DNA of 64,000 nt, from positions 124,001 to 188,000 of the forward strand of contig NZ_AP014879.1 of NCBI RefSeq assembly GCF_002355735.1. Direction: 5' to 3'. The notes beneath the pieces are model-generated. The model had not been told where the DNA came from. It saw only the letters and a list, made by a program, of their open reading frames with translations, and searched no databases. A program made the translations under genes and the position numbers. Below are positions 9,081 through 63,000 of the stretch, in pieces; the first letter of the stretch is position 1, and every line of letters begins with the position of its first letter. The stretch is from Sulfuricaulis limicola (lineage in GTDB: Bacteria > Pseudomonadota > Gammaproteobacteria > Acidiferrobacterales > Sulfurifustaceae).

Positions 9081-9548
9081 ATGGTGATCAAAATTACACC
9101 TGTCAACTCGGGTAGTGTAATAAATTCCTCTCCGGGCCGGCTGAAGGCGGAGCGCACCCGGCTGGGCTTGAGCCAGGTGGCGCTGGGCCAGGCGCTGGGG
9201 GTGACCAAGTGGACCATCATCAATTATGAAAGGACCGGCGGGCGCGGGACGCCGATCCCGGCGGACCTGCTTTCCGCCTGCTCCCGGCTCGGGATGGACG
9301 TGCAATACATCGTCACCGGCGTGTCTTCCAGCAACCTGAACCGGGTGGCGGAGGAGACCGGCAGCTACCGGGTGGAGCCGAAACGGTCGCCGGCCCTGTC
9401 GCCGGATGAACACCGGCTGCTGGAAAAATACCGCCGTCTCAAACCGTCCCAGCGCGCGCAGGCGCAAACCATTGTGGGGGCCCTGATCCCGGCGGAAGGC
9501 AAACCGGCGAAAAAACCGGTTTCACGGCTGCGGCGCGGGAAACGTTGA
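9081..9548 (+). CDS. XRE-family (phage repressor-like) transcriptional regulator
   Basis: 155 residues from the ATG at 9081 (an in-frame TTG lies at 9063). The HTH is LKAERTRLGLSQVALGQALGVTKWTIINYE, followed by a short segment (IPADLLSACSRLGMDVQYIVTG) common in phage CI-like and XRE regulators that carry this domain. The C-terminus is basic (KPAKKPVSRLRRGKR). No LexA-type peptidase domain is visible. Divergent from the Ner-like gene; together they could form a bistable switch. The regulated genes are not evident. Confidence 0.78.
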   Translation: MVIKITPVNSGSVINSSPGRLKAERTRLGLSQVALGQALGVTKWTIINYERTGGRGTPIPADLLSACSRLGMDVQYIVTGVSSSNLNRVAEETGSYRVEPKRSPALSPDEHRLLEKYRRLKPSQRAQAQTIVGALIPAEGKPAKKPVSRLRRGKR

Positions 9549-9558
9549 GTCTTGGGGC

Positions 9559-10086
9559 TTACTTCAGGTAATCGTTCTTGAGATCGACGTAGTGCCGGGC
9601 CGAGTATTCGAACCAGGCCTTTTCCTCGTCCGTCAGCTCGCGCACGCGCTTCGCCGGCCGGCCCATCCAAAGGTAACCGCCTTCCAGTTCTTTGCCTTCG
9701 GTAACGAGACTGCCGGCGCCGAGGAACACGCCTTCGCGCAGCACCGCGCCGTCGAGAATGGCGGAACCCATGCCGATCAGACAGCGCGACTCGACGGTGC
9801 AACCGTGGATGATGCATTGATGGCCGATGGTGACGTCGTCGCCGACGATGACGGCCCAGCCGCCCGGAACCCCTTCATAGTCGTGCGTGCCATGGAGAAT
9901 GCTGCCGTCCTGGATGTTGGTTCTGCTGCCGATGCGGATGTAATTGACGTCACCGCGCACCGAGCACATGGGCCAGATGGAAGTATCGGCGCCGATGACC
10001 ACGTCGCCGATGATGCTCGCGGCTTCATCGATGTAAACCCGGGGTCCGACGGTGGGCAGGATGCCTTTGTAGGGGCGTATCGCCAT
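9559..10086 (-). CDS. Gamma-carbonic anhydrase family protein
   Basis: 175 residues from the ATG at 10086. A left-handed beta-helix of hexapeptide repeats (IGDVVIGADTSIW, IRIGSRTNIQDGSILHG) ends in a C-terminal helix. Metal ligands of the gamma class are visible as the histidines in HGTHD and GHQCIIHGC. YrdA/CaiE-like members are common in gammaproteobacteria and often have uncertain activity; reversible CO2 hydration is the family prototype. TATAAT lies 7 nt before the ATG, with no Shine-Dalgarno site. It converges on the regulator gene. Confidence 0.9.
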   Translation of the reverse strand: MAIRPYKGILPTVGPRVYIDEAASIIGDVVIGADTSIWPMCSVRGDVNYIRIGSRTNIQDGSILHGTHDYEGVPGGWAVIVGDDVTIGHQCIIHGCTVESRCLIGMGSAILDGAVLREGVFLGAGSLVTEGKELEGGYLWMGRPAKRVRELTDEEKAWFEYSARHYVDLKNDYLK

Positions 10087-10093
10087 GGCCGCG

Positions 10094-10099
10094 ATTATA
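10094..10099 (-). promoter_or_regulatory. Perfect -10 TATAAT 7 nt before gamma-carbonic anhydrase start
   Basis: On the minus strand TATAAT, then CGCGGCC, then ATG. Suggests transcription starts at or next to the start codon. Confidence 0.55.
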
Positions 10100-10115
10100 G
10101 GAAGAAAAAGCCGGC

Positions 10116-11120
10116 CTACGCCATCCACGACAACGGGAGTTCATCCAGCGCTGCGGCCTGCTGCTTGAGCGCCAGCACCTGTTCCTCCCAGTAGCGCCGC
10201 GTGTTGAACCACGGGAAGTTGCGCGGGAAGGCGGGGTCGTCCCAGCGCTCCGCGAGCCAGGCCATGTAGCGCAGCATGCGCAGCGTGCGCAGGGGTTCCA
10301 TCAGGCGCAGTTCGGCGGCATTGAACTCCATGAACTCGGTGTAGCCGGACAGCACATCGGCCAGCTGCAGTTCCATGTCCTCGCGGTCGCCGGAAAGCAG
10401 CATCCACAAATCCTGCACCGCCGGGCCGGTCAGGCAGTCGTCGAAATCCACCAGGTGCGGGCCGGTGCCGGTCCAGAGAATGTTGCCGAGATGACAGTCG
10501 CCGTGCAGGCGGATCCACGCGGCATCATCAGCGGCGCGGAAGGCGGCTTCGATCGGCGGAAACAGGTATTCCATGATGGCGAAGAACGAGGCGCGCAGTT
10601 CTTCCGGCACCATGTCGTGTTCTTTCAGATAGCGCACCGAGCGGTGTCCGAATTCCTCAATGCCCAGACGTGCACGGTGACGGAACGGTTCGGCCGCGCC
10701 GAGCCGGTGCAGGCGACCGAGATAGCGGCCGAGCAGGGCGCGGTCGTCGCGCGAGTTCAGCTCGGGCGCACGCCCCGGTTGCCACGGAAACACCGCGAAG
10801 CGAAAACCCCCGTGGTGACTGAGCGTGCCGCTGCCCGGGCGCGCCAGCGGCGCCACGGCCGGGATCTCGTGTTCGGCCAGCTGCAGCGCGAAGGTGTGTT
10901 CTTCCAGGATCGCGGCCTCGTCCCAGCGGCCGGGGCGGTAGAACTTGGCCACAGACGGCGGACCGTCCTCGGTGTCCACGCGGTAGACGCGGTTTTCGTA
11001 GCTGTTGAGCGCGAGCAGGCCGCCGGTGCAGCGCCCGCCGTACATTTCCACGGCCTCGAGGATGATCTCGGGCGTGAGTGCGTCATAGGGGTGAGCCGGG
11101 GAATCGGGGACGGTGGTCAC
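10116..11120 (-). CDS. srkA: SrkA/YihE-type stress response serine/threonine kinase
   Basis: 334 residues starting at GTG 11120. Fold is the aminoglycoside phosphotransferase/choline kinase type: N-terminal lobe SYENRVYRVDTEDG, catalytic HGDCHLGNILW near residue 209, metal-binding LVDFDDCLTGP. In E. coli the YihE/SrkA kinase protects cells under envelope and toxin-antitoxin stress. Length matches the family (~328 aa). Divergent from prlC with only 24 bp between the start codons; a TATAAC hexamer lies 8 nt upstream and overlaps the opposite -10. Confidence 0.9.
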   Translation of the reverse strand: MTTVPDSPAHPYDALTPEIILEAVEMYGGRCTGGLLALNSYENRVYRVDTEDGPPSVAKFYRPGRWDEAAILEEHTFALQLAEHEIPAVAPLARPGSGTLSHHGGFRFAVFPWQPGRAPELNSRDDRALLGRYLGRLHRLGAAEPFRHRARLGIEEFGHRSVRYLKEHDMVPEELRASFFAIMEYLFPPIEAAFRAADDAAWIRLHGDCHLGNILWTGTGPHLVDFDDCLTGPAVQDLWMLLSGDREDMELQLADVLSGYTEFMEFNAAELRLMEPLRTLRMLRYMAWLAERWDDPAFPRNFPWFNTRRYWEEQVLALKQQAAALDELPLSWMA

Positions 11121-11128
11121 GGCCGCAC

Positions 11129-11136
11129 GTTATAAT
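11129..11136. promoter_or_regulatory. Overlapping divergent -10 elements of srkA and prlC
   Basis: TATAAT (11131-11136) reads toward prlC and TATAAC (11134-11129) toward srkA; the two hexamers overlap by four bases. Each ends 8 nt before its start codon. Neither gene has a Shine-Dalgarno sequence, and convincing -35 boxes are not visible. Confidence 0.6.
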
Positions 11137-11144
11137 ACTTCGAT

Positions 11145-13202
11145 ATGGAAAACACCTCTCTCGTCTCCAACCCGCTGCTCGATCTCACACAACCACCCCG
11201 TTTCGGCGTCATCCTTCCGGAGCATGCCGAACCGGCGCTGGACCGGGTGCTGGCAGAAAACCGCGCCGCCCTGGAGCGGGTGCTGGCATCCGGCGGTCCT
11301 TATGCCTGGGACAATTTCGCGCAGCCGATCGAGGACATGCGCGAACGCCTGGTGCGCCTGTGGTCGCCGGTGTCGCACCTGCACGCGGTCATGGACAGCG
11401 AGGCGCTGCGCGCCGCCTACAATGTCGGGCTGCCGAAACTTACCGCCTATTTCACGGAGCTGGCGCAGGACGAGCGGCTGTACGCCGGTTACAAGGCCAT
11501 CGCCGCGAGCCCGGGGTTTTCAGGGCTGACCCAGGCGCAGAAAAAAATCATCGAAAATACGTTGCGCGATTTCCGCCTTGCCGGCGCCGAGCTGCCGCCG
11601 GACAAGAAGGCGCGCTTCAAGGCCTTGCAACAGGAGCTCGCGGCCCTGCAGAGCAAGTTCTCGGAGAACGTGCTCGACGCCACCCAGGCGTGGGATTTGC
11701 GCATCACCGACGAAAAGGACCTCGCCGGCCTGCCCGAGTCGGCGCGCGCCATGGCGCGGCAGGACGCGCAGGAGAAAAATCTGCAAGGCTGGCGCTTCAC
11801 CCTCGAGGGCCCGTCCTACATCGCCTTCATGACCTACGCCGATGATCGCGAGCGGCGCCGGCAGATGTACGAGGCCTTCATGACGCGCGCCAGCGATCAG
11901 GGGCCGTCGGCGGGCAAGTGGGACAACGGCGGGTTGATCCTGGGCCTGTTGCGGCTGCGACGCGAGGCCGCGCAACTGCTCGGTTTCAATAATTACGCCG
12001 AGTATGCGCTACAGACGCGCATGGCCAAAACGGTTCCCGAGGTGATGGATTTCCTGAACGATCTCGCGCGCCGCGCCAAACCCGCGGCACAGAAGGATTT
12101 CGAGGAACTGAAACAGTTCGCGCGCGAGGCGCATGGCGTGGAACGGCTCGAGGCCTGGGATATCGCGTATTACTCCGAGAAGCTGCAACAGGCGAAATAC
12201 CGCATTTCGCAGGAAGACCTGCGGCCGTATTTCCCGGAGACCAAAGTCGTGCCCGGCCTGTTCGAGGTGGTCGAGCGGCTGTACGGCCTGAAGATCACCG
12301 GGGTCAGGGGCGTTGAGGTGTGGCACCCGGACGTGCGTTTCTATGAAATCCGCGACAGCACGGGCGAAGTGCGCGGGCGCTTTTACATGGACCTGTACGC
12401 GCGCGCCAACAAGCGCGGCGGCGCGTGGATGGACGAATGCATCAACCGCAAGCGCACCGCGGGCGGCGTGCAGGTGCCGGTGGCCTACCTGGTGTGCAAT
12501 TTCACCCCGCCCGTGGGCGGCCGGCCGGCGCTGTTCACCCATGACGAGGTCATCACGCTGTTCCACGAATTCGGTCACGGCCTGCACCACATGCTGACGA
12601 AGGTGGATTATGTGGGTGTGGCGGGCATCAATGGCGTGGCCTGGGACGCGGTCGAGCTGCCGAGCCAGTTCATGGAGAACTGGTGCTGGGAGCGCGAGGC
12701 GCTCGATCTCATCGCCGGGCATCACCAGAGCGGTGCGAAAATTCCGGACGAGCTGTACGTCAAAATGATCGCGGCCAAAAACTTCCAGTCCGGCATGCAG
12801 TTCGTGCGCCAGCTGGAGTTCTCGCTGTTCGACATGCGCCTGCACGGTGAATACAACCCGGATGGCGGCAAGGGCGTGCAACAGGTTCTGGACGAGGTGC
12901 GTGCCGAGGTGGCGGTGGTGATTCCGCCGGCGTTTAACCGCTTCCAGAACGGTTTTTCCCACATCTTCGCCGGCGGCTATGCCGCCGGCTACTATAGTTA
13001 CAAGTGGGCCGAGGTGCTGTCGGCCGATGCTTTCAGCAAGTTCGAGGAAAACGGGGTGTTCGATCGCGCCACCGGCCTGCAATTTTTGCGGAACGTTCTC
13101 GAGCAGGGCGGCTCGCGTGAGCCGATGGAGTTGTTCGTGAATTTTCGGGGACGCTCACCCAGGATCGATGCACTGTTGCGGCATTCCGGACTGGCCGCTT
13201 AA
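11145..13202 (+). CDS. prlC: Oligopeptidase A (M3 family zinc metallopeptidase)
   Basis: 685 residues, full length for the family. PrlC/OpdA degrades oligopeptides, including cleaved signal peptides, in the cytoplasm. The zinc site is HEFGH in LFHEFGHGLHHML near residue 473, with the third ligand glutamate in ELPSQFMENW. The N-terminal region is the helical M3A domain. Followed 12 nt later by a YgiM-like gene. Confidence 0.96.
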   Translation: MENTSLVSNPLLDLTQPPRFGVILPEHAEPALDRVLAENRAALERVLASGGPYAWDNFAQPIEDMRERLVRLWSPVSHLHAVMDSEALRAAYNVGLPKLTAYFTELAQDERLYAGYKAIAASPGFSGLTQAQKKIIENTLRDFRLAGAELPPDKKARFKALQQELAALQSKFSENVLDATQAWDLRITDEKDLAGLPESARAMARQDAQEKNLQGWRFTLEGPSYIAFMTYADDRERRRQMYEAFMTRASDQGPSAGKWDNGGLILGLLRLRREAAQLLGFNNYAEYALQTRMAKTVPEVMDFLNDLARRAKPAAQKDFEELKQFAREAHGVERLEAWDIAYYSEKLQQAKYRISQEDLRPYFPETKVVPGLFEVVERLYGLKITGVRGVEVWHPDVRFYEIRDSTGEVRGRFYMDLYARANKRGGAWMDECINRKRTAGGVQVPVAYLVCNFTPPVGGRPALFTHDEVITLFHEFGHGLHHMLTKVDYVGVAGINGVAWDAVELPSQFMENWCWEREALDLIAGHHQSGAKIPDELYVKMIAAKNFQSGMQFVRQLEFSLFDMRLHGEYNPDGGKGVQQVLDEVRAEVAVVIPPAFNRFQNGFSHIFAGGYAAGYYSYKWAEVLSADAFSKFEENGVFDRATGLQFLRNVLEQGGSREPMELFVNFRGRSPRIDALLRHSGLAA

Positions 13203-23305: not shown

Positions 23306-23402
23306 CCGTGGCCAGGGGCGCCATCCCGGACGCCGGCAACGGCGGATAATCCCGGCTTGGCGCTGTAAAGGCGCTGCGCTATAGTGCCGGGCCTCGACCC
23401 AG

Positions 23403-23570
23403 ACCCGCGGGAGAGACCCCGGAACCGGTATTGATCCGGGGCGCCGAAGGCGCAATCGCCAGGAATCGCTCAGGCAAAAGGACCGCGGAGACGATCGGTC
23501 GACTCTGGAGAGAGATGGCGCACCGCCATCCACCGAAGGGGCTCAAGCTCTCAGGTTACCGGACAGAGGG
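23403..23570 (+). promoter_or_regulatory. Tandem glycine riboswitch
   Basis: Two aptamers in series: the first (about 23403-23488) has GCGGGAGAGAC, GCCGAAGGCGCAA and GCTCAGGCAAAAGGACCGCG; the second (about 23503-23567) has CTCTGGAGAGA, CACCGAAGGGG and CTCTCAGGTTACCGGACAGAG. These are the conserved elements of gcvT-type glycine riboswitches. It precedes gcvT and is followed directly by a terminator hairpin, consistent with glycine turning expression on. Confidence 0.95.
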
Positions 23571-60743: not shown

Positions 60744-62618
<1,875 letters not shown>

Positions 62619-62677: not shown

Positions 62678-63000
62678 GGGCCTGTAGCTCAGTTGGTTAG
62701 AGCAGGGGACTCATCACAATGGTGCGCTCGTGTTGAAAGATACGAGATGAACGGGATGAATTCAGGGAAACCTTCCAGCCATGGCTGATGGCAACCCTGA
62801 GCCAAGCCGGGAGTACACTCCCGGAAGGTGCAGAGACTACCTGAGGGCTTGAGCGCCCTTGATCACAGGCTTGAGCGTCCCGCGCCCTAACTTCTCTTGC
62901 TGCAATAGGGATGAGGGCGGTGAGATAGTCCACTCCTGTCGGAAACGGCGGGGCAGAGTGAATCCCTTGGTCCTAGGTTCGAGTCCTAGCGGGCCCACCA
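62678..63000 (+). tRNA. tRNA-Ile2 (anticodon CAU), interrupted by a group I intron
   Basis: The 5' exon is 62678-62714 and the 3' exon 62961-63000 (37 + 40 = 77 nt with encoded CCA). Joined, they form a complete cloverleaf: acceptor GGGCCTG/CGGGCCC, D-arm GCTC/GAGC, anticodon stem GGGGA/TCCCT with loop CTCATAA, T-arm CTAGG/CCTAG. The CAU anticodon with an Ile2-like body (ACTCATAAT with TTGGTC variable loop) indicates the isoleucine AUA decoder, modified to lysidine by TilS, rather than methionine. The intron splits position 36 from 37. Confidence 0.93.
62715..62960 (+). ncRNA. Group I intron (IC3-like) in the tRNA-Ile(CAU) anticodon loop
   Basis: 246 nt without an ORF. It follows U36, ends in G (62960) and contains group I core sequences: TTCAGGGAAACC (about 62761-62772), GGCAACCCTGAGCCAAG (about 62790), GGTGCAGAGACTACC (62828-62842) and GAGATAGTCC (62922-62931). 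P7 pairs GACTA (62835-62839) with TAGTC (62926-62930). The guide GTG (62722-62724) can pair with the exon CAT, giving the U-G at the splice site. These core strings resemble the cyanobacterial tRNA-Leu and Azoarcus tRNA-Ile introns of subgroup IC3. Self-splicing is expected. Confidence 0.92.

Follow-up and report, generated by a model that had tools for sequence, protein, structure and literature searches.

Group I introns have been noted in the tRNA-Ile2 genes of Acidovorax and Burkholderia in a passage of an earlier paper (PMC8450103). According to a passage in another, what sets the IA2 td ribozyme apart from the otherwise similar IC3 ribozymes of Synechococcus and Azoarcus is an extension, P7.1/7.2, between P7 and P3 (PMC4498298). 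With regard to phages, a statement in a 2014 review places all phage introns observed to date in protein-coding genes (PMC3984707). No report of tRNA-Ile(CAU) introns in Gammaproteobacteria, or of split tRNA-Ile genes in phages, was found in the top-ranked, mostly open-access literature.

The DNA analysed here (the window, a stretch of 64,000 nucleotides) carries a tRNA-Ile(CAU) gene that is split within its anticodon loop, between U36 and A37. The insert matches the RF00028 model along its whole length (73.5 bits against a gathering threshold of 50, E 8.9e-17, model positions 1-253 of 253). The features of the locus are as follows, where pairing and both-side changes refer to the alignment described below.

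60744-62618, plus strand: rpoD (sigma-70), with Pfam sigma-70 domains; a neighbour conserved by synteny, its stop codon 59 nt before the tRNA
62678-62714, plus strand: 5′ exon of tRNA-Ile(CAU), ending CUCAU with C34, A35 and U36
62712-62724, plus strand: P1, anticodon CAU and C62715 with GGUG (62721-62724), U36-G wobble at the 5′ splice site; paired in 57/57, invariant
62715-62960, plus strand: group I intron, IA-like, 246 nt, starting with C; last base omega-G (62960)
62725-62749, plus strand: P2 hairpin with GAAA loop (62735-62738); both-side changes in 8/8 inner pairs
62752-62758, plus strand: 5′ strand of P3, partner 62876-62882; 99.5% of cells paired, mostly invariant
62761-62801, plus strand: P4 (62761-62767 with 62795-62801) and P5 (62771-62772 with 62790-62791)
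62802-62828, plus strand: P6, invariant, and P6a, with both-side changes in 7/7 pairs
62835-62839, plus strand: 5′ strand of P7, GACUA, partner UAGUC (62926-62930); invariant
62840-62869, plus strand: P7.1 (62840-62843 with 62866-62869) and P7.1a (62844-62848 with 62855-62859), an IA-like insert between P7 and P3
62883-62919, plus strand: P8 with variable loop (62883-62887 with 62915-62919); 97.5% of cells paired, both-side changes in three pairs
62932-62959, plus strand: P9.0 (62932-62933 with 62958-62959) and P9 (62935-62941 with 62946-62952), the latter with a GAAA loop
62961-63000, plus strand: 3′ exon of tRNA-Ile(CAU), from A37 to the encoded CCA, starting AAUCCC

Read together, the two exons give a canonical 77-nt tRNA with anticodon CAU. 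Its acceptor, anticodon and T stems pair 7, 5 and 5, and it has A37 and A73, as expected of tRNA-Ile2 (CAU). It is distinct from the Met-like CAU genes of the same genome (L017 and L026), and the three E. coli genes found among the matches listed are annotated as tRNA-Ile (84.6%). Six intronless relatives were examined: three have an intact gene identical to the rejoined exons (77/77), three differ from them at 3-5 positions, and in all six rpoD lies upstream of the intact tRNA-Ile(CAU). A sequence-only reading of the window had proposed a group I intron of 246 nt ending in G, a perfect rejoined tRNA, rpoD as neighbour and the absence of a homing endonuclease ORF. The covariance-model match bears out the first of these, the boundaries hold to the base, the tRNA and its neighbour are as described, and no endonuclease was found in the intron, the single ORF tested that overlaps it, of 78 aa on the minus strand, being without a Pfam match. 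A plasmid search returned short matches at the exons only (3 records). ARAGORN, when run on the window, missed the tRNA at the split gene; genomes carrying such genes can thus appear to be without AUA decoding.

The fold was assessed on an alignment of 57 gamma-type sequences, including that of the window, with a hand-drawn structure of 69 pairs in which P7 and P9.0 were included; L094 (685 nt) was excluded from the alignments. Over the whole structure 96.2% of cells are paired and 32 pairs show changes on both sides; double-change cells number 469 (125 in shuffles), and the covariation score is 0.334 (0.134 in shuffles). Slid versions of the structure pair 32-44% of cells, a comparison in which the true structure has an edge through having been drawn on one of the 57 sequences. 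As a lone strand the intron folds with a z of -2.74 (2/200 shuffles as low). All cells of P7.1a are paired, three of its pairs have both-side changes, and double-change cells number 25 at one pair and 27 at another. Six of the seven P9 pairs and one in P9.0 change on both sides. The P7 pairing that the sequence-only reading had picked out (62835-62839 with 62926-62930) is upheld in that it forms in 57/57 sequences, although its five pairs never vary and so, on their own, speak neither for nor against it. P1, P5, P6 and P7.1 proper never vary either; the support for these helices and for P7 comes from the Rfam model and from context. The U-G at the 5′ splice site (alignment columns 12 and 56) is present in 57/57. 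The P3-P9 core with its P7, the terminal omega-G and the U-G splice site together identify a group I intron. Inspection of the alignment by eye gave no convincing P10 between intron and 3′ exon. A distal P5 hairpin of the window was paired in 34% of cells of the alignment and is not claimed; the poor pairing is probably a misalignment of the variable loop.

The presence of P7.1 with P7.1a or P7.2 is a mark of IA introns in general, and the window intron has P7.1 with P7.1a between P7 and P3. An IC3 intron has no extension at this point, where the window has a 30-nt hairpin (62840-62869), and in five Azoarcus-type tRNA-Ile introns (L057, L095, L110, L119, L126; 203-210 nt) P7 leads straight to P3 without a P7.1 insert. 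By the distinction drawn in the passage of PMC4498298 the window intron is therefore IA-like, and is not of the subgroup of the Azoarcus tRNA-Ile and cyanobacterial tRNA-Leu introns (IC3) to which it had first been assigned. If the intron were IC3 nonetheless, it would have both ancestry and architecture in common with those introns. The tRNA, the bond and the guide GUG are identical, and the window P2 and P9 carry GAAA loops, which is an Azoarcus trait. The architectural part of this alternative is already refuted by P7.1/P7.1a, which separates P7 from P3 and in which P7.1a covaries; the question of ancestry is taken up below with the tree.

Within the 2.86-Mb single-contig genome (G000), RF00005 gave 43 tRNA matches. 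Two other CAU genes were named among these by ARAGORN; from their features we take L017 to be elongator-Met-like and L026 initiator-Met-like. None of the 43 is a tRNA-Ile(UAU), and the pattern for an intact tRNA-Ile(CAU) has no match in G000. A second intact gene, which would make the split copy dispensable, was therefore found neither among the 43 matches nor by pattern, in a list that also lacks tRNA-Ile(GAU) and tRNA-Ala(UGC), whose usual place is in the rRNA operons; the list is thus not exhaustive, and a hidden second tRNA-Ile(CAU) is possible. As no other tRNA-Ile(CAU) was found, splicing is probably needed to read AUA. The genome has a TilS gene (185 bits, cut-off 93.6), and AUA makes up 66 of 791 Ile codons (~8%), or 66 of 17,980 codons, and is present in 31/48 ORFs, as counted in non-overlapping window ORFs picked by length and GC3, an approximate set in which some are probably spurious. 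From the TilS gene and this share of AUA it can soundly be inferred that splicing would gate AUA decoding, as the sequence-only reading had it.

The order of events would follow general group I chemistry. The internal guide GUG would pair with the anticodon CAU itself, forming the U36-G wobble at the 5′ splice site, and exogenous guanosine bound in P7 would attack after U36. Omega-G62960 would then occupy the G site (P9.0), and attack by the 3′-OH of U36 after omega-G would join U36 to A37. The mature tRNA would presumably then be modified by TilS (lysidine at C34) and read AUA. Since splicing of the window intron is a prediction from its letters, and protein help is common among group I introns, many of which need it, the intron could be decayed or protein-dependent, with the fold kept but splicing dead or reliant on a host factor. 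However, the core is paired and conserved over the 57 sequences and, because no other tRNA-Ile(CAU) was found, a dead intron should be lethal. We consider decay or dependence on protein improbable, and favour an intron that splices itself.

The genome has other RNA elements too. Its tmRNA gene is interrupted in the T-loop by another group I intron (L002:1173-1836, ~G000:C1:2180302-2180965), which scores 37.8 bits with RF00028, under the cut-off; by our reading of the sequence, this T-loop insertion is at the known main tmRNA site. Apparent tmRNA introns occur in four other genomes of the family (L043, L044, L047, L049), and further group I introns lie in apparent tRNA-fMet and tRNA-Leu genes of family genomes (L040, L045, L041, L048, L042). 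The window's family seems to be rich in tRNA introns. The window also contains a glycine riboswitch aptamer (23398-23495, 62.8 bits).

Twenty genomes of the family were screened with RF00028. Matches were found in 13/20, above the cut-off in 8/20, and inspection of these eight revealed the same kind of intron in tRNA-Ile(CAU). An intact gene was found by pattern in 6/20 and neither form in 6/20, the latter being explained by incomplete genomes or pattern variants. Within the window's genus, the intron is present in five species (G000, G011, G012, G014, G018) and an intact gene in three (G013, G016, G017), whilst neither was found in G015. Across species genomes, a split-site pattern (the 5′ exon without A37) hit at least 119 stretches, 80 of which were listed as loci; 67 of the 80 gave a parsed intron, making 75 split genes together with the eight family loci. 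Most of the 13 unparsed loci (L055, L059, L063, L064, L078, L096, L101, L102, L104, L112, L117, L118, L125) were cut at the locus end. Three of them (L055, L112, L118) look like unsplit tRNAs with another base at 37, and therefore the split-site pattern is no proof of an intron.

Window-type (gamma-type) introns, with at least 70% identity to that of the window, account for 57 of the 75 split genes. Thirteen others are mostly from Burkholderiales and Bacteroidota (60-65% identity for the 12 aligned), and five are of the Azoarcus type (53-57% identity). Burkholderiales loci include both IA-like and Azoarcus-like types. A gammaproteobacterial chromosome had at first been regarded as a less familiar host, a view that these data do not support: among the loci listed, most named ones with a window-type intron are labelled Gammaproteobacteria, and of 369 genomes from the window's class, which to all appearances is Gammaproteobacteria, 24 show the split-site signature, in 18 family codes, a count of exact pattern matches that misses variants and may include some unsplit genes. 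Two MAG labels, L088 (Actinomycetes) and L057 (Akkermansia), misfit their introns and may be misbinned; they were given no weight. Four loci have an additional tRNA-Ile(CAU) 5′ half, which stops shortly after the anticodon and precedes the split tRNA by 150-230 nt; two carry the label Burkholderiales (L053, L108), one Rhodoferax (L110) and one Akkermansia (L057).

The sequence-only reading had offered two histories, an old intron kept vertically or one moved by reverse splicing. Of the 54 gamma-type loci that extend 400 nt or more upstream, 40 have a sigma-70 C-terminal motif on the same strand in the upstream 3.5 kb. RpoD and intron distances are correlated (Spearman 0.38, Mantel p 0.0005, 38 gamma loci; Spearman 0.46, p 0.001 for all 39 loci kept from the 42 with a long enough RpoD). 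The relation flattens at about 15-20% RpoD difference, and vertical descent is therefore claimed at closer range only. On the rpoD tree of the family, at least five changes of intron state are needed, two of them forced by well-supported (starred) branches, and intron presence clusters no better on this tree than shuffled labels (mean 5.2, 308/500 shuffles as low). With the intron so patchy (8/20 with it, 6 intact, 6 neither) and at least five changes, descent is not simply vertical. The intron at the rpoD-tRNA-Ile2 locus is thus inherited vertically at closer range, with repeated loss or gain; the pattern fits vertical persistence with recurrent precise loss as well as recurrent gain by recombination. 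The earlier pair of histories was incomplete in leaving out phages, in which split tRNA-Ile(CAU) genes occur and whose introns mix with chromosomal ones in the tree.

A blastn search of annotated phages with the intron gave 24 records, from Vibrio, Klebsiella, Synechococcus and crAss-like phages, all of them partial matches that cover less than 80% of the query. In Klebsiella phage Muenster (L205:823-1133) a tRNA-Ile(CAU) missing from the annotation is interrupted at the U36-A37 bond by an IA-type intron of 231 nt (RF00028 104.1 bits), and the Klebsiella jumbo phage RCIP0023 (L222) has an identical split gene, also unannotated. Three other records of Klebsiella phages contain the Muenster-type intron with an identity of at least 98%, one of them over 84% of the query length. 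The split tRNA-Ile of the Klebsiella jumbo phages contradicts the statement in the 2014 review (PMC3984707) that phage introns lay in protein-coding genes. The window and Muenster introns are 58% identical (130 of 224). Of the phage introns compared, the closest to the window's is in the capsid gene of viral contig L197 (72%, 163 of 226), not in a tRNA.

The split-site pattern was found on 13 viral contigs, with a 3′ exon in 11 of them (the other two being L213 and L216). An intron of the window's kind sits in the tRNA-Ile(CAU) of L209 (RF00028 80.8 bits). Azoarcus-like introns occur in the same gene of L212 (60.2 bits) and L218 (55.9 bits), above the Rfam cut-off, and, under it, of L206 and L210, whose inserts are alike in the stretches compared (L206 gave 50.5 bits with the model R1, below). 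L207, L211, L214 and L217 carry an insert of 440-631 nt with similar ends after U36 of tRNA-Ile(CAU). These longer inserts could not be assigned to group I, with no RF00028 match at cut-off and at best E 0.1 with R1. L208 and L215 have a 100-nt insert at the tRNA-Ile(CAU) site.

Several viral contigs show further arrangements. The major capsid protein gene of L197 holds five group I introns in ~2 kb (9185-11250), the first being the one closest to the window's, and the pieces between them match SU10_MCP and phrog_1328. On the minus strand of L199 (5907-6534) a tmRNA match (RF00023 74 bits) encloses a group I intron match (91.1 bits), and on the minus strand of L201 (9523-9861) a group I intron (RF00028 76.9 bits) interrupts an apparent tRNA-Leu. 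L191, L192 and L198 start inside an intron-bearing tRNA-Ile(CAU); in L192 an integrase gene (482-1723) follows just after the split tRNA, as if an element had integrated there.

Relationships among the introns were examined with a covariance model, R1, of the core of 24 tRNA-Ile introns (22 chromosomal and 2 from phage or viral contigs). Phage introns outside the model score 44-169 bits, the best being L197 (169), L201 (145), L204 (132) and L203 (130; psbA, S-PM2), in a sample where close introns are over-represented, having been picked by exact core strings or blastn likeness. The scores are 42-61 bits for chromosomal Azoarcus-type introns, 59-63 for tRNA-fMet introns and 20-36 for tmRNA introns. 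The best R1 match is 112-141 bits in L203, L205, L219 and L220, of which L205 was in the model. A tree was built from 68 rows and 170 columns of an alignment fitted to the model, with a midpoint root and a bootstrap that had not settled; of 72 R1 matches it omits L042, L126, L211 and one short L197 match. In this tree a well-supported group (98/99) unites the introns of the Azoarcus type with those of tmRNA, fMet and Leu, and the IA-like tRNA-Ile and phage introns fall outside it. The IA-like chromosomal tRNA-Ile introns and the phage introns are intermixed.

AU tests followed inspection of the first tree and used 66 rows (L048 and one L202 match also omitted), grouped according to host and gene. 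A single clade of all 37 tRNA-Ile introns was rejected (p 7e-6), as was one of the 30 IA-type tRNA-Ile introns (p 0.004), whereas a single clade of the 19 gamma-type introns was not (p 0.42). Gamma-type introns may thus be of single origin, judging from these sequences. The first rejection, together with R1 scores that place the best four phage introns well above the chromosomal Azoarcus-type ones, also argues against common ancestry with the IC3 introns, and we regard an IC3 identity for the window intron as highly improbable. We are confident that the split gene, the sole tRNA-Ile(CAU) gene detected in the genome, instead contains an autocatalytic, IA-like group I intron with P7.1/P7.1a, whose inheritance is vertical at closer range with repeated loss or gain.

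As the tRNA-Ile introns do not form a single clade, the U36-A37 bond was entered more than once. From sequence comparison, the nearest relatives outside tRNA-Ile are phage introns, with which the window intron shares its type. An account of origin compatible with the above is that the intron came into the tRNA from phages, by recombination or by reverse splicing of a phage split tRNA-Ile(CAU) or phage intron, and later spread by exchange of the rpoD-tRNA locus, with loss. In its favour, introns of this class occur in phage capsid, terminase, psbA and tRNA genes; the Klebsiella phages and L209 have tRNA-Ile(CAU) genes split at the same bond by IA-type introns, the former with near-identical copies in further records; and chromosomal and phage introns mix in the tree, with a single IA-type clade rejected. 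Yet the direction is unrooted, one clade of gamma introns is compatible with the data, the Muenster intron is distant from the window's and the nearer L197 intron sits outside any tRNA; moreover, the phage introns were picked up through similarity to these introns, a procedure biased towards close ones. We hold this origin to be plausible, though with somewhat less than an even chance.

We propose, tentatively and with a little less confidence, that unrelated group I introns have inserted time and again at the U36-A37 bond of tRNA-Ile(CAU), which would act as a hub, and that phages are the vehicle, exchanging ready-split genes with chromosomes. Such ready-split genes exist in phages and viral contigs for both kinds, IA-type (Klebsiella jumbo phages, L209) and Azoarcus-like (L212, L218 and, under the cut-off, L206 and L210). 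On this proposal a guide that reads the anticodon CAU would make tRNA-Ile(CAU) a preadapted target, and the essential nature of the tRNA would keep the intron in place without an endonuclease. With two intron lineages at the same bond, in chromosomes and phages alike, the movement of endonuclease-free group I introns becomes directly testable. The window intron itself belongs to a known kind, and it is the repeated, phage-linked entry into the site that is the notable part.

The Azoarcus BH72 pre-tRNA-Ile(CAU) intron (IC3) shares with the window intron the tRNA and the bond, the pairing of guide GUG with anticodon CAU and the lack of an endonuclease. It differs in that Azoarcus-type introns are 203-210 nt long and without the P7.1 insert, and four of them form a separate clade in the tree. 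The introns of Acidovorax and Burkholderia are also group I and in the same tRNA gene, but in betaproteobacterial hosts, and the passage that describes them gives no subgroup (PMC8450103). T-loop introns of tmRNA are likewise group I introns in an RNA of translation (another than tRNA, as a passage of PMC11915505 relates), and one is in the same genome; they form a separate clade, score 20-36 bits with R1 and lie in the T-loop rather than the anticodon loop. Lastly, the phage introns (psbA of S-PM2, the terminase genes of Vibrio phages and the tRNA-Ile of Klebsiella jumbo phages) have the same core as the window intron, but most of them interrupt protein-coding genes, and the one in the Klebsiella phage tRNA-Ile shares 58% identity with it.
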